Shown one piece after another: positions 8,917 through 42,030 of a stretch of DNA of 64,000 bases. The DNA is from Acidihalobacter aeolianus (GTDB lineage Bacteria > Pseudomonadota > Gammaproteobacteria > DSM-5130 > Acidihalobacteraceae): positions 824,462 to 888,461 of the forward strand of contig NZ_CP017448.1 of the NCBI RefSeq assembly GCF_001753165.1, read 5' to 3'. The position numbers and the translations under genes were made by a program. A model generated the notes under the pieces. The model worked only from the letters and a program-made list of their open reading frames with translations. It made no database searches and was not told where the DNA came from. Each line of letters starts with the position of its first letter. Position 1 is the first letter of the stretch.

Positions 8917-10997
8917 CTCGCAGCGGCCGGCTCGTCCGCGGCGAGGGCCGCGACGAGGGCCTCGAGGGCGTTGATCGGCGGTGCGCACGTCGCGCCGCGG
9001 CAATAGTAGGCACGCGGTGCATCGCCAGCCGGCTTGTCGGCGATGGCCGGCGGCAGGCCGGTTGCGCCGCCCGGCACCGCATAGGCCAGGCGCGCCGGTG
9101 CATAGGCCGCCAGGCAGCGCGCCAGCCATGCGCCCAGCGTTTCCTCCGGTCCGCGCAGGATCGCCAAGGCAGTGGGACGCAGCTGTTCCTCCAGGGCATC
9201 GAGCAGCGTGCAGTGTGCCGAGGGTGTCTGCGCGATGGCGCCGGAAGCGGCGGCCAGGGCGCGTTCGGCGGCTTCCAGGTAACGGGACTCTCCCGACAGA
9301 TGTCCGAGCCGGGTCAAGGCGAGGGTGGCTATGCCGTAGCCGGAGGGCATGGCTTCGTCCGCCATAGGCTGACTGCGTTGGATCAATGCCTCGTGATCGT
9401 CGGCGGTGAAGTAGAAACCACCGTGCTCACGGTCCTCGTAGTGTGCGAGCAGGGTATCCGCGAGCGCGCAGGCGAAGGCGAACTCCTCCTCGCGCCAGCG
9501 CAGCTGCAGCAGTTCGAGTACGCCCTCGAGCATGAAGGCGTAATCGTCGAGGTAGGCGGAAAGATGTGCGCGCCCGTCCTTGCAGGTCGCGAGCAGGCGT
9601 CCGTCCTCCCAGAGGGTGCTGCGCACGAAGTCGAGCGCGCGCGTCGCGCTTTGCGCATAGTCGTCGCGCTGCAGATGGCGCGCCGCGGCCGCCATGCCGC
9701 GGATCATGAGACCGTTCCAGGCGGTCAGGATCTTGTCGTCCAGGCCCGGCCGGATACGGGTCTCGCGCAGTGCGAACAGGCGCTCGCGGGCTGCGGCGAG
9801 ATGTGCCGCGGCGGTTGCCTCGTCGAGGCCAGCGATTGCGGCCGCTTCGGCCAGCGGGCGGGCGCCGACCAGATGCCAGCGGCCCTCGAAGTTGGGTGTC
9901 GAATCGAGACCGTAGCGCGCCGCGAACAGCGGGAAGTCGGTCTCGCCGACCGCTTCGCGCACCGCCTCGCGAGTCCAAACGTAGTAGCGGCCTTCCTCGC
10001 CCTCCGAGTCCGCGTCCAGCGACGAATAGAAACCGCCTTCCGGCGATTGCATCTCGCGCATGGCCCAGTCCGCGGTGGCCTCGGCCGTGGCGCGGAAATC
10101 CGCGCGCCCGGTGATCGCATGGGCCTGCGCATACAGGGCAAGCAGGGGGCCGTTGTCGTAGAGCATTTTCTCGAAGTGCGGGATCGCCCAGTGTTCGTCC
10201 ACCGAATAGCGCGCGAAGCCGCCGCCCAGGTGATCGAACAGACCGCCTTCGGCCATGCATTCCAGCGTGTGCAGGGCCATCTGCAGGGCCTGTTCGTCCT
10301 CGCGTCCGTCGAGCCGGGTGGCTGCCCAGTGACGCAGCAGGCGGTTGAGGCTTGCGGTATGCGGGAACTTGGGCGCCGACTCGAAGCCGCCGCTGACGCG
10401 GTCGTAGCGTTGCGCCAGTTCCGCGCGGGCACGATCCAGCGTCATCGCGCCGAGTGCGTTTGGGTCAGGGTCGTGACGGCCGAGACGACCGAGCATCTCG
10501 AGCAACTGTGCGTTCTGGCGGTCGATATCATCACGGCGTTCACGGTAGATTTCCGCGACGCGCTCGAGCAGTGCTGGGAAGCCGGGCAGGCCGTAGCGCG
10601 GGGATTTTGGGAAATACGTTCCGGCGAAGAAGGGGGCCTGTTCCGGTGTGAGGAACACGGTCAGCGGCCAGCCTCCGCCACGCTGACTGAGCAGATAGTG
10701 TGCGGTCTGGTAGATCCGGTCGATATCAGGCCGTTCCTCGCGGTCCACCTTGATGTTAATGAAATTCGCGTTCATGACGTCCGCAATGGCTCGGTCCTCG
10801 AACGACTCGTGCGCCATCACGTGACACCAGTGGCAGGCGGAATATCCGATAGAAAGCAGGATCGGCTTGTCCTCTTCGCGGGCACGGGTGAGGGCTTCCT
10901 CGCCCCAGGGATACCAGTCGACGGGGTTGTCGGCGTGCTGCTGCAGGTAGGGGCTGGTCTCGTCGGCAAGCCGGTTGCGCGGGGTGCTGGACATCAT
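8913..10997 (-). CDS. YyaL-like protein: thioredoxin domain plus (alpha/alpha)6 barrel (DUF255)
   Basis: A 694-residue protein of the DUF255/YyaL (spermatogenesis-associated protein 20-like) family. The start at 10997 is an ATG pair after AGGAC. The N-terminal thioredoxin-like domain has [26 protein letters not shown] and the redox motif CHWC in [16 protein letters not shown] at about residues 50-65. The rest is the glycan-hydrolase-like helical barrel typical of the family ([10 protein letters not shown] and [14 protein letters not shown]). The length fits the family. Its role is not established in bacteria. It probably stands alone, since both neighbours are on the other strand. Confidence 0.9.
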
Positions 10998-37584: not shown

Positions 37585-38039
37585 ACGCGCCCCAAGTGGG
37601 TGCGCACCAGGTCGGCGCGATGCGCCGTTTGGGATTCGCCCGGCGATAGCAACCCCGCGATGCGCGGCTTGGCCGTGGTGGGCCGAACCCAGAATCAGCG
37701 CGCGATGCTCCCGGTTGCCCCAGGCTGGTGCGATGCCCGCTCGCCAGCTTCAGCAACCCCGCGTAAAAATCCCGCATGCCTCGAATATTCGGGGCTAATC
37801 ATCGAATCCCCTTTCATGCATTGAAGGCGGGGCTTCAAGCCTGCCTATGTCACCAGGACGGGAGCCTTAATGCCCGGAATGGGTATCGACCCTGCCGGGC
37901 TTGCCGAGCCAGCGAGTGATCGTCGCAATCTCTCGTTGGTGGTGTGGATATAAAGTTCATGCGTGCTGTCTAACGAACGCTTAGAGGCATTTCCAGACAT
38001 GAATTGGCAATGCCCGATATCCACCCAGGAGATTCAGTT
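37585..38039. other. Intergenic region without a recognisable gene
   Basis: A 455-base gap. It contains a near-perfect palindrome at 37779-37794 (core CGAATATTCG), two copies of AGCAACCCCGCG near 37651 and 37752, and GGAG before the next start. Short open frames here have no coding character that I can support. Confidence 0.5.
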
Positions 38040-38561
38040 ATGCCCGGTAATTTCTCCCTCGTGAAATGGGGTGCCTTCCTGATTTCGTTGCTGGTTGTCG
38101 GCTTGCTGGGCGCAGAGCCTGCGTTCGCAGCGAAAGTGACTCATATCGATATCCCGGCCACGGTCGTCAAACTGCCTTTGGCGAAGGGTGTCACACCGAG
38201 TGAAGCCATCCAGTCCATGAAGCTGCGCGCCAATTTTCTCAACTTCAAACTGGTCGCGCACCAGGACCTGTCCGCCCAGCTAAAGGCCATGGGCGCTAAG
38301 CATGTGCGCACGCTGGACATCTACCAGTTTTGCAAACCCACGGTGGCCTATGAAATGGTCTCCTTCAATATGGCCTATGCCGCTTATCTGCCCTGTCGCA
38401 TCGCCGTGGTTCAAGGCAAGCACGGCCATTACTGGCTGACCATGCTGAACCCCAAATTGCTGCTGTCCCGCAAGATGCCTCCGGCGCTCAAGAAGAGTGC
38501 CGATTCGGTGATTGCCGGCTTGATGAAAATCATCAAGGCAGGCGCCGACGGCGCGCTCTGA
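38040..38561 (+). CDS. Exported DUF302 protein
   Basis: A 173-residue protein with a signal peptide (KWGAFLISLLVVGLLGAEPAFA, residues 9-30). The mature part has the DUF302 pattern: HQDLSAQLKAMGAKHVRTLDIYQFCKPTVAYEMVSFNMAYAAYLPCRIAVVQGKHGHYWLTML. DUF302 proteins are small alpha/beta proteins, often periplasmic and found near sulfur or redox genes; function is unknown. ATG 38040 follows AGGAG by eight bases. Confidence 0.82.
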   Translation: MPGNFSLVKWGAFLISLLVVGLLGAEPAFAAKVTHIDIPATVVKLPLAKGVTPSEAIQSMKLRANFLNFKLVAHQDLSAQLKAMGAKHVRTLDIYQFCKPTVAYEMVSFNMAYAAYLPCRIAVVQGKHGHYWLTMLNPKLLLSRKMPPALKKSADSVIAGLMKIIKAGADGAL

Positions 38562-38910
38562 CGGATTTGGAATTAAGGCGATATTCTTCAGCCCCATGCG
38601 TTATCTGAGAGCAATGCATGGGGTGCTTGATGTCTCAAACAAATGACTGGTTTGAATTATCGAGACTTCCGAAATCGGCCACATCCGGCCATTCATGCTC
38701 CTTCCATATCAGTCCGATGGACGACAGGTGTGCAGCGAGAACCAGTCGTTCGACTAACTCTGGTTGGGCATCAGCTTCATGTCCTCGTTTTCATACATGC
38801 ATATAGAGACAAAGAAATGATAAAGTGGTGGAAAATCATCTGGTTAATCGCTGTTTTTGTGGGTCTCTGTATAAAAGAATGTCAGGATCCGTCGGTCTCT
38901 ATATTTACTG
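38562..38910. other. Left flank of the cassette array
   Basis: About 350 bases. It holds an 8-bp inverted repeat (CCCCATGC 38592-38599 and GCATGGGG 38616-38623) and a sharp fall in GC from about 38800. A 10-bp inverted pair (ATATAGAGAC 38801-38810, GTCTCTATAT 38895-38904) ends five bases before the cassette boundary and might be part of a degenerate recombination site. No integrase gene is visible. A 48-codon frame (38818-38963) crosses the boundary and is probably not a gene. Confidence 0.5.
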
Positions 38911-38932
38911 TTAGATTCTCTCGAGAGGAAAC

Positions 38933-39529
38933 TTGGAAGCGTTTTACGAAAGCACAACTGTGAAAGTAGTAACTTTCATCATAGCTGCTATGGTTTTCTT
39001 AATTATTCCGCTAATTAATAGCGCAATAAATCAGCGGATTCCTGTGGCAATGAGGGCTCAGCACGCAAAACGGGCGGAAGATGCTTGGATGAAAACAGTT
39101 ATTCTTTTTTCCACTTCAATCGCCGCCGGGTTTCTTGTCTTCTTTCGTGGTGGTTTTGATGAAGCAATTACGCAGGCATTTTTCGGAATGTGTCTATTTT
39201 CTTCCCTTGCATCATTTTGGACAGTCAAGAAGACAAAAACGCTAATTCAAGAGGCTAAGGTACTTTCTCTCGCTGGCAATCGTGCGACTCGAATTCATGA
39301 TGTTGAAAGAGTGAACAGAGAAAAGGCCACTAAAGCAACATTGGTCAGCTTCACGATTGGTCTATTAGGCTTTCTGTATGTCGCGCTTGCCTTTGACACA
39401 TATAGATTTTCCTGGCTTTGGTTTGCGGGCTTCATTTCCACAGCATTCGCGATCCTGTCAGCAGGGTGGAGTGATGCGGCGAATTTTGCGATTGCAAAAT
39501 ACGCCTCGGATCCAAATCATGGGAAATGA
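38933..39529 (+). CDS. Cassette 1: multi-pass membrane protein of unknown function
   Basis: A 198-residue hydrophobic protein with about four or five membrane helices (roughly residues 12-30, 53-71, 78-96, 135-153 and 159-177) and a basic loop around 97-135 (TVKKTKTLIQEAKVL, then RIHDVERVNREKATK). No family was recognised. The TTG start lies 22 bases inside the cassette after AGAGG, typical for cassette genes, and the stop TGA ends one base inside the start of attC1. AT-rich codons differ strongly from the chromosomal neighbours. Confidence 0.75.
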   Translation: MEAFYESTTVKVVTFIIAAMVFLIIPLINSAINQRIPVAMRAQHAKRAEDAWMKTVILFSTSIAAGFLVFFRGGFDEAITQAFFGMCLFSSLASFWTVKKTKTLIQEAKVLSLAGNRATRIHDVERVNREKATKATLVSFTIGLLGFLYVALAFDTYRFSWLWFAGFISTAFAILSAGWSDAANFAIAKYASDPNHGK

Positions 39530-39600
39530 ATCTAACACGTCGCTCAAGCCGACCACAAAATCGCTGCGCGCTTTTCGGTCGGCTTAGCTAGGCGTTAGCG
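39530..39600 (+). repeat. attC site 1 (59-base element)
   Basis: R'' ATCTAAC (39530-39536) and R' GTTAGCG (39594-39600). The inner arms GCTCAAGCCGACC and GGTCGGCTTAGC pair perfectly except for one extra C, the extrahelical base typical of attC bottom-strand hairpins. It closely resembles the attC of aadA cassettes. Confidence 0.93.
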
Positions 39601-39616
39601 ATGGAAGCGCACATAC

Positions 39617-40030
39617 ATGATTGACCCAGTCATCATATCGATAGTTGCTCTTTGCATTTCAATTGCAGGTTTCGGTTTTTCGATATATCAGTGGAAAAAG
39701 AACAGCTTCATAAAAAGTGCAGAAAAAGCTCATGAAGTGACGTTAGAAGCATTCGAGTTGCGTCGCTCATCGCAAGATCTCAGAGATTTAATCGCAGTCA
39801 CTGATGACATTGATGACATGGAGGGGTTTCTACGAGCAATAGACAAAGTATCCGAGGAGCTGTTAAATGCATTGCGCAATCCAAGAATTAGCCTTGTCGA
39901 TGCTTACAAAGCGCAGCAAAAAATTTCAGATTTGAGACTAGAACTCGATCTTCTGCACAAACAAGTATTAGAGGTAAAAAGGCTTAATAATGAGGTTGCA
40001 GAACATGAACGATCAAAAAATAATCGCTAA
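39617..40030 (+). CDS. Cassette 2: membrane-anchored coiled-coil protein
   Basis: A 137-residue protein with one N-terminal membrane helix (residues 5-24, VIISIVALCISIAGFGFSIY) followed by a basic WKK stop-transfer and about 105 residues of predicted helix or coiled coil rich in Glu, Leu and Lys. No family was recognised. The ATG lies 22 bases inside the cassette and the stop TAA lies within R'' of attC2. The cytoplasmic helix suggests an oligomerising partner protein, but this is inference. Confidence 0.75.
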   Translation: MIDPVIISIVALCISIAGFGFSIYQWKKNSFIKSAEKAHEVTLEAFELRRSSQDLRDLIAVTDDIDDMEGFLRAIDKVSEELLNALRNPRISLVDAYKAQQKISDLRLELDLLHKQVLEVKRLNNEVAEHERSKNNR

Positions 40031-40096
40031 CAAGGCGCTCGTTCGGATGCAAACTACGCTGCGCTTCGTTTGCGCCGCACAGCTTCAACGTTATGC
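40025..40096 (+). repeat. attC site 2
   Basis: R'' CGCTAAC (40025-40031) and R' GTTATGC (40090-40096). Inner arms GCTCGTTCGGATGCAAAC and GTTTGCGCCGCACAGC pair with one extra C and two mismatches. The variable loop is short (TACGCTGCGCTTC). Confidence 0.92.
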
Positions 40097-40117
40097 GTCA
40101 AAATAAACGGGGATTAG

Positions 40118-40651
40118 ATGACTGCCACTGAAGGGGCAACAGAGGAAGAACTTACGCGGGCACTCACCTACGCGGGGTTCGTTCTAGTTGCATTCGAGCT
40201 AGTCAAAGACATTATAGTTAACCCTATCAAGGCTTTTTATCAAGATACGACCTTCGATGAAGGAATGCCGTTCAAATCGTACGAAGAAGATGTATTGTCT
40301 CGGCATAAGAATCAATTTGAAGCATGCCTTCTATATCTTCGCGATTTTATGGAGGCTATAGACTCTGAGGACGTTCTAACCATTCAAGCGTTAAGAAAAC
40401 ACCGAAATGACTTGGCGCATGATCTTCCCAATATGCTCGGAAACATAGATGTAGAGGATCATCTGCCTCTATTGCAAAAAACTGATAAGGCCTTATTCAA
40501 ACTCAGTAATTATCGCACATATATAGAAATTGGCTCCGATCCTGCCTTCCAGAACAAGGGCATTGACTGGGATACTATAAAAGGACCTGAGTACGAGCTT
40601 TTTGAAGAAATAATTAATAAGGTAAAAACATTGCGGGGCGTCAGAAAATGA
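40118..40651 (+). CDS. Cassette 3: HEPN-like protein
   Basis: A 177-residue soluble, mainly helical acidic protein. It has R96-N97-D98-L99-A100-H101 (in ALRKHRNDLAHDLPNML), the R-x4-H motif of HEPN ribonucleases and toxins, in the usual place at the start of a C-terminal helix. The rest has no recognised family. HEPN proteins are often toxins or defence effectors, but some are only regulatory. No antitoxin such as an MNT nucleotidyltransferase is in the same cassette. ATG 40118 lies 27 bases inside the cassette. Confidence 0.72.
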   Translation: MTATEGATEEELTRALTYAGFVLVAFELVKDIIVNPIKAFYQDTTFDEGMPFKSYEEDVLSRHKNQFEACLLYLRDFMEAIDSEDVLTIQALRKHRNDLAHDLPNMLGNIDVEDHLPLLQKTDKALFKLSNYRTYIEIGSDPAFQNKGIDWDTIKGPEYELFEEIINKVKTLRGVRK

Positions 40652-40652
40652 C

Positions 40653-40724
40653 GCATAACAAGACACTCCACCGGACGAAAATTACGCTACGCTTCATTTG
40701 CGCCTGTGAGTTTGGTCGTTGAAC
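40653..40724 (+). repeat. attC site 3
   Basis: R'' GCATAAC (40653-40659) and R' GTTGAAC (40718-40724). Inner arms CTCCACCGGACG and CGCCTGTGAG pair with bulges as in other attC sites. A downstream cassette should end in an attC with R'' GTTCAAC; none was found, so attC3 is probably the last. R' overlaps a 15-bp palindrome GGTCGTT-G-AACGACC (40714-40728). Confidence 0.88.
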
Positions 40725-40914
40725 GACCGCTGTTGGGCTTGGTGCCGACAGCGGGTTAACGATACGCGAATGGCAGGATTGGGTCGAACTGAGACTCGCG
40801 GTCAGTGGGCTAGAACCCCGGGGGACTTGTCGACCATTTTGAGATAATGGGTACAGAGTCATACAGCTTTAGTACGTCAAAGACTTGCAATTGTTCCAGA
40901 GGTGGCTTGTAGCG

Positions 40915-41685
40915 ATGAATTACACACCAATCCTCAATGAGGTGTTCAGGCTCTGGTGGTTTATCCCTATCCTGCTGGTCATCGCGGTATTCAAAACACC
41001 TTGGGTAAAGGGTTGGCTCGGAGAGTCCTTAGTCAAATTTGCAGCTTGGCTAAGGCTTCCCGCCAATACCTACCATCCATTACACAATGTCACCCTGCCC
41101 ACACCTGATGGGACTACGCAGATCGATCATATCTTCGTGTCCCGGTTTGGCGTCTTTGTCGTAGAAACGAAAAACATGAAGGGCTGGATTTTTGGGGGTG
41201 AACATCAGCCCCAGTGGACACAGCAGAGATTCAAGAGATCCTTCAAGTTCCAAAATCCGCTCCTACAGAACTACAAACACGTAAAAGCACTGGAGACGGC
41301 GCTTGATGTTCCGGCTGAGACCATCCACTCGGTAGTCGTATTTGTAGGAGAATGTTCGTTCAAATCTCCCATGCCAACAAATGTCACAAAGGGTGGCGGT
41401 TACATCACGCATATCAAGTCTTTCGGCGAGCCGGTTCTCAGCGAGTCGCAAGTCCATGCTGCTCTATCTCAAATACAGTCAGGTCGGCTAGAGCCAACTC
41501 GAAAAACACACCATCAGCACGTCCAGCATCTCAAAGCTCGTTCCGATCTCTCAACAAGGCGCAGGTGCCCCAAATGTGGGAGCCTCATGGTTTTGCGCAC
41601 AGCCAAAAAGGGAGCAAATGCTGGTAAACAATTCTGGGCGTGTTCAGCTTATCCAACATGCAGGACAGTACAAAATACCTCCTAA
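40915..41685 (+). CDS. NERD-domain protein with topoisomerase-type zinc finger
   Basis: A 256-residue protein. One membrane helix (residues about 11-27) is followed by a NERD nuclease-related domain (WLGESLVKFAAWLRL, DGTTQIDHIFVSRFGVFVVETKNMKGWIFGG, with the D-x(n)-E-x-K pattern). The C terminus is a zinc ribbon of the topoisomerase I type (RRCPKCGSLM, then FWACSAYPTCRTV). NERD proteins are membrane-tethered PD-(D/E)XK-like nucleases of unclear role, often in accessory regions. It lies 190 bases after attC3. An upstream TTG (40885) is possible; ATG 40915 has GAGGTGG nearby. Confidence 0.85.
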   Translation: MNYTPILNEVFRLWWFIPILLVIAVFKTPWVKGWLGESLVKFAAWLRLPANTYHPLHNVTLPTPDGTTQIDHIFVSRFGVFVVETKNMKGWIFGGEHQPQWTQQRFKRSFKFQNPLLQNYKHVKALETALDVPAETIHSVVVFVGECSFKSPMPTNVTKGGGYITHIKSFGEPVLSESQVHAALSQIQSGRLEPTRKTHHQHVQHLKARSDLSTRRRCPKCGSLMVLRTAKKGANAGKQFWACSAYPTCRTVQNTS

Positions 41686-41798
41686 GGGTCCTGCAGGAAT
41701 TTTCATCGGGCACAATGTCTTATTGATGATGTGAATCAGGACGACTGCTGTGATCAAAATACCGGTCACTAATACCAATAATGACTGACTGGCTGCAT

Positions 41799-41906
41799 GG
41801 GGTCGTGTGCTGCCAATCCTGACTAGTACCAAGAGCCGAGTGCCTTTGTGCGTTGCATCGCAACTACAGGGGTCGTGTGCTGCCAATCCTGACTAGTACC
41901 AAGAGC
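41799..41906. repeat. Two 38-bp perfect direct repeats, 70-bp period
   Basis: Copies at 41799-41836 and 41869-41906 begin GGGGTCGTGTGCTGCC and end CTAGTACCAAGAGC, separated by 32 bases. There are only two copies and no cas gene, so it is not a CRISPR array. The gap 41686-42104 holds no gene that I can support; short reverse-strand frames run through the repeats. Confidence 0.85.
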
Positions 41907-42030
41907 GGTCACTACAGCCATGTGCGTGGTCAATCGCCATCCGAGATCCTTCAGTCCTCGATGAACGAATCCGCTGGCGGTATCCATCTTCAACGCCCAT
42001 GTAGGTATCGCAACGACGCAGATCCGGGAT

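Follow-up and report, generated by a model that had tools for sequence, protein, structure and literature searches.

A repeated leader with a fixed end heads integrase-free integron cassette arrays in Acidihalobacter aeolianus and two sister species

Introduction

Arrays in which at least two attC sites share an orientation and no intI gene is close by are termed CALIN. Off-target insertion, loss of intI and rearrangement are the three origins proposed for them in PMC8618304, and CALINs of Xanthomonas are reported at conserved loci away from intI (PMC12444791). Off-target activity of the integron integrase IntI at attI-like sites has also been described (PMC10127599).

Here we analysed a window of 64 kb, the whole stretch of DNA under study (C1:824462-888461), from the genome of Acidihalobacter aeolianus (G000, contigs of 3,363,634 and 162,484 bases). 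The window contains three attC sites and no match to the integron integrase family TIGR02249. A first-pass annotation had proposed a CALIN-type array produced by integron-style insertion, and the three attC sites without an integrase nearby support this; no intI adjoins the array as it does in a complete integron. The array begins at a leader (LE) which is repeated at ten other loci of the genus; the passages of PMC12444791 and PMC8618304 on ordinary CALINs mention no leader of this kind. With the sedentary chromosomal integron of the genus, present beside argH in the sister species G001 and G002, the array has in common the kind of cassettes and attC sites and the G|TTA junction, but it lacks intI, and LE shows no significant similarity to the attI site of that integron. 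As in attG insertions, cassettes lie outside an intact integron and entry is between G and TT; attG sites are scattered short matches, whereas the window system uses one fixed base in a repeated leader of 235 bp. MITE-like integron units (integron mobilization units) likewise have short repeats flanking an integron segment and no movement gene of their own to be seen, but the terminal inverted repeats of LE and of the 3′ element RE are not significant overall and no target duplication was demonstrated. Literature searches brought up no paper about repeated attI-like leaders scattered without intI, which is no proof of absence.

Materials and methods

Two models were used for attC sites. R1 includes the three sites of the window and four sites of a sister genus. 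Since R1 scores of its own training sites are circular, R3, a covariance model from seven plasmid attC sites without any sequence of the window's genus, was built as an independent test. The R1 tally of A. aeolianus comprises 150 of 2341 first-look candidates, so that weak sites may be missing from it. The RE profile was built from four copies (window, G002a, G000b, G002b). The scan for cassette cargo covered 15 of the 32 cassette ORFs across loci. Both sister species, G001 and G002, carry an intact intI. The context names XerD/XerC, DsbC and HslV are readings of translations.

Results

Three attC sites separate AT-rich cassettes

The first-pass annotation had described three attC sites with AT-rich cassettes and an exact complement of R″ and R′ at each boundary. 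Both descriptions were borne out: R3 detects exactly these three sites in 64 kb, and the complement rule is satisfied in 7/7 bases at all three cassette boundaries.

38676..38910, + strand: LE, repeated leader, putatively attI-like, 235 bp; 11 copies in three species; the final base is the G of the G|TT junction
38862..38873, + strand: LE direct repeat 1 (GGTCTCTGTATA), 12-bp repeat
38894..38905, + strand: LE direct repeat 2 (GGTCTCTATATT), adjoins the junction
38911..39594, + strand: cassette 1; ORF 38933-39529, 198 aa; without a match in Pfam, NCBIfam or PADLOC
39530..39600, + strand: attC1; R3 47.5 bits
39595..40090, + strand: cassette 2; ORF 39617-40030, 137 aa; weak SLATT_5 match, E 0.0043, below cut-off
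40025..40096, + strand: attC2; R3 69.6 bits; the related pTBH13 attC belongs to the R3 training set
40091..40718, + strand: cassette 3; ORF 40118-40651, 177 aa; weak PDC-M25A match, E 0.0083
40653..40724, + strand: attC3, the last attC; R3 65.9 bits; its R′ GTTGAAC is common to RE
40719..40786, + strand: RE, repeated 3′ element directly 3′ of the last attC
Boundary 1: GTTAGAT 38910-38916 / ATCTAAC 39530-39536, complement 7/7
Boundary 2: GTTAGCG 39594-39600 / CGCTAAC 40025-40031, complement 7/7
Boundary 3: GTTATGC 40090-40096 / GCATAAC 40653-40659, complement 7/7

An exact complement is expected by chance in about 1/256 per cassette, as GTT/AAC is fixed and four bases are free. Covariance scores below threshold had been named as the result that would speak against the array; what R3 returned were three matches with E 7e-17 to 1e-10 (7.1e-17, 7.8e-16 and 1.2e-10), the next-best matches in the window having E 0.9. 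Among the matches listed, those of attC1 to attC sites from resistance integrons on plasmids have 82-84% identity, and attC2 shows 95.5% identity to one attC of the Thiolapillus brandeum plasmid pTBH13. Evidence on the other side came from folding of the bottom strands, proposed as a further check: by plain folding energy attC1 alone was better than its shuffles (z -3.94), and attC2 (+0.63) and attC3 (-0.24) were not. The GC content is 0.44-0.46 at 39-41 kb of the window versus 0.62-0.71 at 33-38 and 42-47 kb. A consensus promoter was not found in 38560-39000.

In G001 and G004 the dcd-side gene adjoins amtB and, according to this, about 37585-42016 of the window is extra DNA. The designation as main accessory island is thus roughly right for this region, while the integron unit occupies just 38676-40786 of it. 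Between RE and amtB lies a gene at 40885-41685, without an attC, whose protein combines a NERD domain (Pfam NERD 1.2e-32) with a zinc ribbon of the topoisomerase type; it is missing from the orthologous site of G002. The sequence GGTCGTGTGCTGCCAATCCTGACTAGTACCAAGAGC is present twice, about 78 bp apart, at 41793-41907 of the window, and once in G002, directly 3′ of RE.

LE ends at the same base in all copies

LE is present in four copies in A. aeolianus (window, C1:927387, C1:510267, C2:32027), four in G001 (C1:3262852, 3289508, 1640617 and a diverged copy at 1492059, L084) and three in G002 (C2:488182, C3:176266, C6:872064). All 11 copies end with the same terminal G followed by TTA, and the first cassette enters at this G|TT junction in each of them, as is expected of an attI site; among the copies detected by R2 the junction follows every one (four in G000, three in G002). 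Pairwise homology of LE loci ends at the junction, mostly at +3 to +12 and at most at +39. Mean pairwise identity, taken over seven full copies, reaches 0.89 across the first 20 bp, falls to 0.59 between -95 and -55 and peaks at 0.96 over the final 15 bp. The left end is common to 9/11 copies in the alignment; in the diverged copy the alignment with the profile starts at position 2, and of the copy at C1:510267 just about the last 136 bp are alike by BLAST. One direct repeat together with the spacer is missing from two of the 11 copies (G002a, G000p). For an RNA structure of LE the covariation term was unfavourable, with a double change in 3/30 pairs.

The cassette start has an exact 7/7 R″ complement at seven of the 11 LE loci (window, G002a, G001a, G002b, G001b, G001c, G000p) and a 6/7 complement at two (G000b, G002c). 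At G000c all 6/6 readable bases are complementary, the rest being cut by a group II intron, and at the diverged copy (L084) a 7/7 complement is present without a convincing attC after the first cassette start. The attC of G001b is without its 3′ half and was not detected by R1. At the other LE loci R3 found strong attC sites in L102, L058 and L054; L059 gave one weak site (E 0.1), and L041, L055, L056, L057, L060 and L084 gave no match at E<=1. The attC sites of R3-negative LE loci are based on R1 (by construction for L041, L055 and L057) and on the complement rule. A 922-bp segment with 99.6% identity is common to the arrays in L102 (G000 C1:497001-512000) and L087 and fits a group II intron inside an attC. 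On a Citrobacter plasmid, too, an attC interrupted in a similar way lies next to a gene annotated as group II intron maturase.

None of the 11 copies is a full-length LE that is empty or crosses the junction (G001 covered by BLAST and selected loci), and no uninterrupted target where no cassette had landed, as expected of an attG site, was found among them. No TIGR02249 match lies beside any LE copy in G000, G001 or G002. Comparison of LE with the attI of the genus gave a best-pair shuffle p of 0.07-0.24. In a search of 369 genomes of the class LE was clear in two (G000, G002); two further matches at E 0.005 are about the chance expectation over 369 genomes, and G001, being in neither list of this search, was probably not drawn. 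No LE match was obtained in plasmids and phages, nor in a pattern scan of genome contigs, a set from which near records are perhaps absent. The first 97 bp of LE occur alone, without junction or cassette, at L112:1806-1902 (G000 C1:1032806-1032902).

RE and the orthologous loci

RE follows the array at 7/11 LE loci, four by construction (window, G002a, G000b, G002b) as well as G000c, G002c and G001d; the LE loci without RE are G001a, G001b, G001c and G000p. It was also found behind both full leaders of another family, T4 (see below), at the G002 locus orthologous to G000b and, in further copies, in L081, L095, L097 and L113. Terminal inverted repeats of LE and RE gave shuffle p values of 0.03, 0.20, 0.23 and 0.51 in four pairs.

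The window and G002 are syntenic around the array, with 93-95% identity in the left and 86% in the right flank. Between LE and RE at this orthologous site the window has three cassettes, while G002 has one unrelated cassette with a Shedu defence gene. At the G002 locus corresponding to G000b homology reaches 4-5 bp into LE and is followed by transposase-like and other ORFs and by RE; R1 found no attC there. A clean empty site or a target duplication was not found, and the compared homology breaks lie outside LE/RE.

The integrase locus is absent from A. aeolianus

A search for intI elsewhere in the genome, as suggested by the first-pass annotation, yielded no TIGR02249 match over the cut-off in A. 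aeolianus. The fullest matches were rejected as intI, since their contexts are XerD-like, with a DsbC-like ORF next door, and XerC-like, with an HslV-like ORF following. G001 and G002 have one intact intI each (472.9 and 474.4 bits, 352 aa) adjoining an argH-like ORF, named from sequence reading. The corresponding site of A. aeolianus is empty: the end of the argH-like ORF is about 0.1 kb from the block that in G001 comes after the array, and the 7.1 kb between these two in G001 are missing. Since the intI locus is gone from A. aeolianus, its arrays should be frozen. The alternative that the window array was detached from a larger integron is not supported: the array comes with a leader (LE) and a 3′ element (RE) of its own, each of which recurs at other loci, and the intI integron of the genus sits beside argH, at another locus that is empty in this species. 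In G003 and G004 there was no TIGR02249 match over the cut-off.

A 55-aa ORF at G000 C1:530690-530806 (L012:4664-4831) resembles the C-terminus of IntI and is a possible remnant; TIGR02249 is its best match of eight families (E 4.3e-14), with 71% identity over 35 residues to IntI of G002. ORFs near it resemble HipA/HipB, as read from sequence. In G001 an IntI-like scrap of 107 aa is located at C1:855745.

Genome tally and other leaders

R1 gave 11 matches at E<=1 in A. aeolianus, nine of them in five loci. The four LE copies account for seven of these nine credible attC sites, which lie behind them, and an orphan genus attI (C1:2980096) likewise for two; the other two matches (E 0.61, 0.85) belong to a palindromic repeat. 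G003 has one R1 match (E 0.32). A GCCCAAC...GTTGGGC cluster at G000 C1:2050477-2055914 (L010) was rejected as a chromosomal attC array, because its elements match both strands and repeat, as a palindromic repeat imitating the attC consensus does; a backwards control of the search pattern gave 48 matches per strand versus 37.

Copies of the genus attI stand at both intI loci as well as at four loci that lack intI. An intI-less attI locus is orthologous in G000, G001 (L096) and G002 (L093), with differing arrays. Like LE, this attI and two further leaders, T3 and T4, end at G|TTA.

L098:7445-7618 and L099:8367-8540 (G004): T3 leader, two arrays; 89% identity over 188 bp
L082:8576-8917 (G004) and L083:11040-11381 (G001): T4 leader, 90% identity over 347 bp, then cassettes and RE
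L097:5189-5331 (G001): start of T4, 144 bp

The dcd-amtB DNA of G001 and G004, which represent two genera, is just 76-79% identical; compared with the 90% identity of T4 this points to a spread of leaders from locus to locus and from genus to genus. Arrays without a recognised leader occur in L081, L094, L095 and L100 (G001/G004). Within T3 lies an inverted repeat about 80 bp long. In L096 two attI cores (5315 and 10776-10848), about 5.5 kb apart, are present in one array region.

Cassettes of the window and their relatives

No Pfam match over the cut-off was obtained for the proteins of the three window cassettes. Cassette 3 has an RNDLAH motif, which may resemble that of HEPN proteins. This cassette recurs boundary to boundary on the contig L116, whose bin carries the label Chloroflexota, with 82% amino acid identity of the protein. 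The attC-like end G|TTATGCGTCAAAA 5′ of the gene has 14 identical bases in L116 and the window, and the match stops at R″ (ACATAAC in L116, GCATAAC in the window). With pN 0.11 and pS 0.74 between the two, the protein is under purifying selection. Since R1 found no attC in L116 and R3 merely a 22-base match (E 0.48), its attC sites were assigned by sequence reading. A structure prediction for cassette 3 from the single sequence reached pLDDT 47 and was set aside. Plasmid relatives were not found for cassette 1, and for cassette 3 there was one, which is weak.

Discussion

Together, these data are best accommodated by a model to which we give qualified preference and which we think is probably correct: LE would be an attI-like platform at several loci, loaded in trans by one chromosomal IntI and now frozen in A. 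aeolianus. Such a docking site, with paired direct repeats, a strongly conserved end and the junction after its final G, would have multiplied within the genus to several sites on chromosomes and one on a plasmid. IntI, encoded once beside argH in the two sister species, would insert circular cassettes in trans between G and TT of LE, arrays would run from LE to RE, and an empty LE-RE joint would read ATTTACTG directly followed by TTGAACGACC. The G|TTA end common to all 11 copies, the R″ complements behind most of them, the peak of identity at the junction, the unrelated cassettes between LE and RE at the orthologous loci of window and G002, the position of nine of the 11 R1 matches of A. aeolianus behind LE or attI, and the intact intI of G001 and G002 together with the empty argH site of A. 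aeolianus argue for this model. Nevertheless, some observations point the other way: 4/11 LE loci have no RE, several arrays of G001 and G004 are leaderless, L084 has no convincing attC, and G004 carries T3 and T4 arrays though it has no intI over the cut-off. Moreover, in view of the lack of significant similarity between LE and the genus attI, the action of IntI on LE is inferred and not observed, as is the status of LE as an attI-like site instead of a chance target.

LE could instead be the attI region of a second, lost integrase, whole integrons having been duplicated or transferred and each having shed its intI, so that the arrays would be ordinary CALIN fossils. Loss of intI is one of the proposed CALIN origins (PMC8618304), the genus attI itself stands at four loci without intI, and IntI-like scraps do exist at G000 C1:530690 (C-terminal) and G001 C1:855745 (107 aa). 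We nevertheless consider this unlikely, since none of the three genomes has a TIGR02249 match adjoining LE and since random intI deletions are not expected to leave a left end common to 9/11 copies. Furthermore, different cassettes at the same LE locus in sister species indicate that an integrase acted after their split.

Off-target insertion of the attG type into a pre-existing dispersed repeat that offers a good G|TT appears more improbable still. That IntI can place cassettes at attG sites, which are non-classical, is known (PMC12444791), and the truncated LE in L112 stands alone once. However, no full LE is empty or crosses the junction, the G|TTA end is present in 11/11 copies and conservation is maximal exactly there. 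In E. coli the attG insertions reported in PMC12444791 are spread over many loci, whereas here one base of one repeat is used. An LE carried by an unusual cassette that ends in attI-like instead of attC sequence and is spread by IntI itself is very improbable: excisable cassettes of this delta-attI type exist in class 1 and 2 integrons (PMC12901181), but the alignment shows no common G|TT cassette start at the left end of LE and the copies have no ORF in common.

The leader common to these CALINs marks where cassettes enter, and it suggests a further, testable origin of such arrays: dispersed attI-like sites served in trans. With an intact integrase missing from one species and present in two, the different cassettes at the same sites amount to a natural before-and-after comparison. 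It is a more tentative idea, and in our estimate a doubtful one, that LE...RE as a whole forms a non-autonomous mobile integron platform, an attI-like site moving through genomes as a short unit and filled in trans by the single IntI, often with phage-defence cassettes. If it were true, many docking sites would be served by one integrase, and several independent leader families (LE, intI-less attI copies, T3, T4) would have arisen in this way in one bacterial family.

As judged from their sequence relatives, several cassettes at these loci are probably phage-defence genes. SduA (Shedu) was identified at G002a (PADLOC E 9.5e-115; Pfam SduA_C 1.6e-09), a type II methyltransferase (E 4.6e-122) and an HNH protein at G000c, AIPR/AbiU-like and HNH proteins at G002b and a PDC-S11 match (E 4.5e-09) at G000b. 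Defence-type genes at several sites would mean a distributed defence store. In the small T. brandeum plasmid pTBH13 (L030) a row of genes is split by attC-like sites and includes HicAB, RelE/HigA, FRG, TIR and caspase-family proteins.
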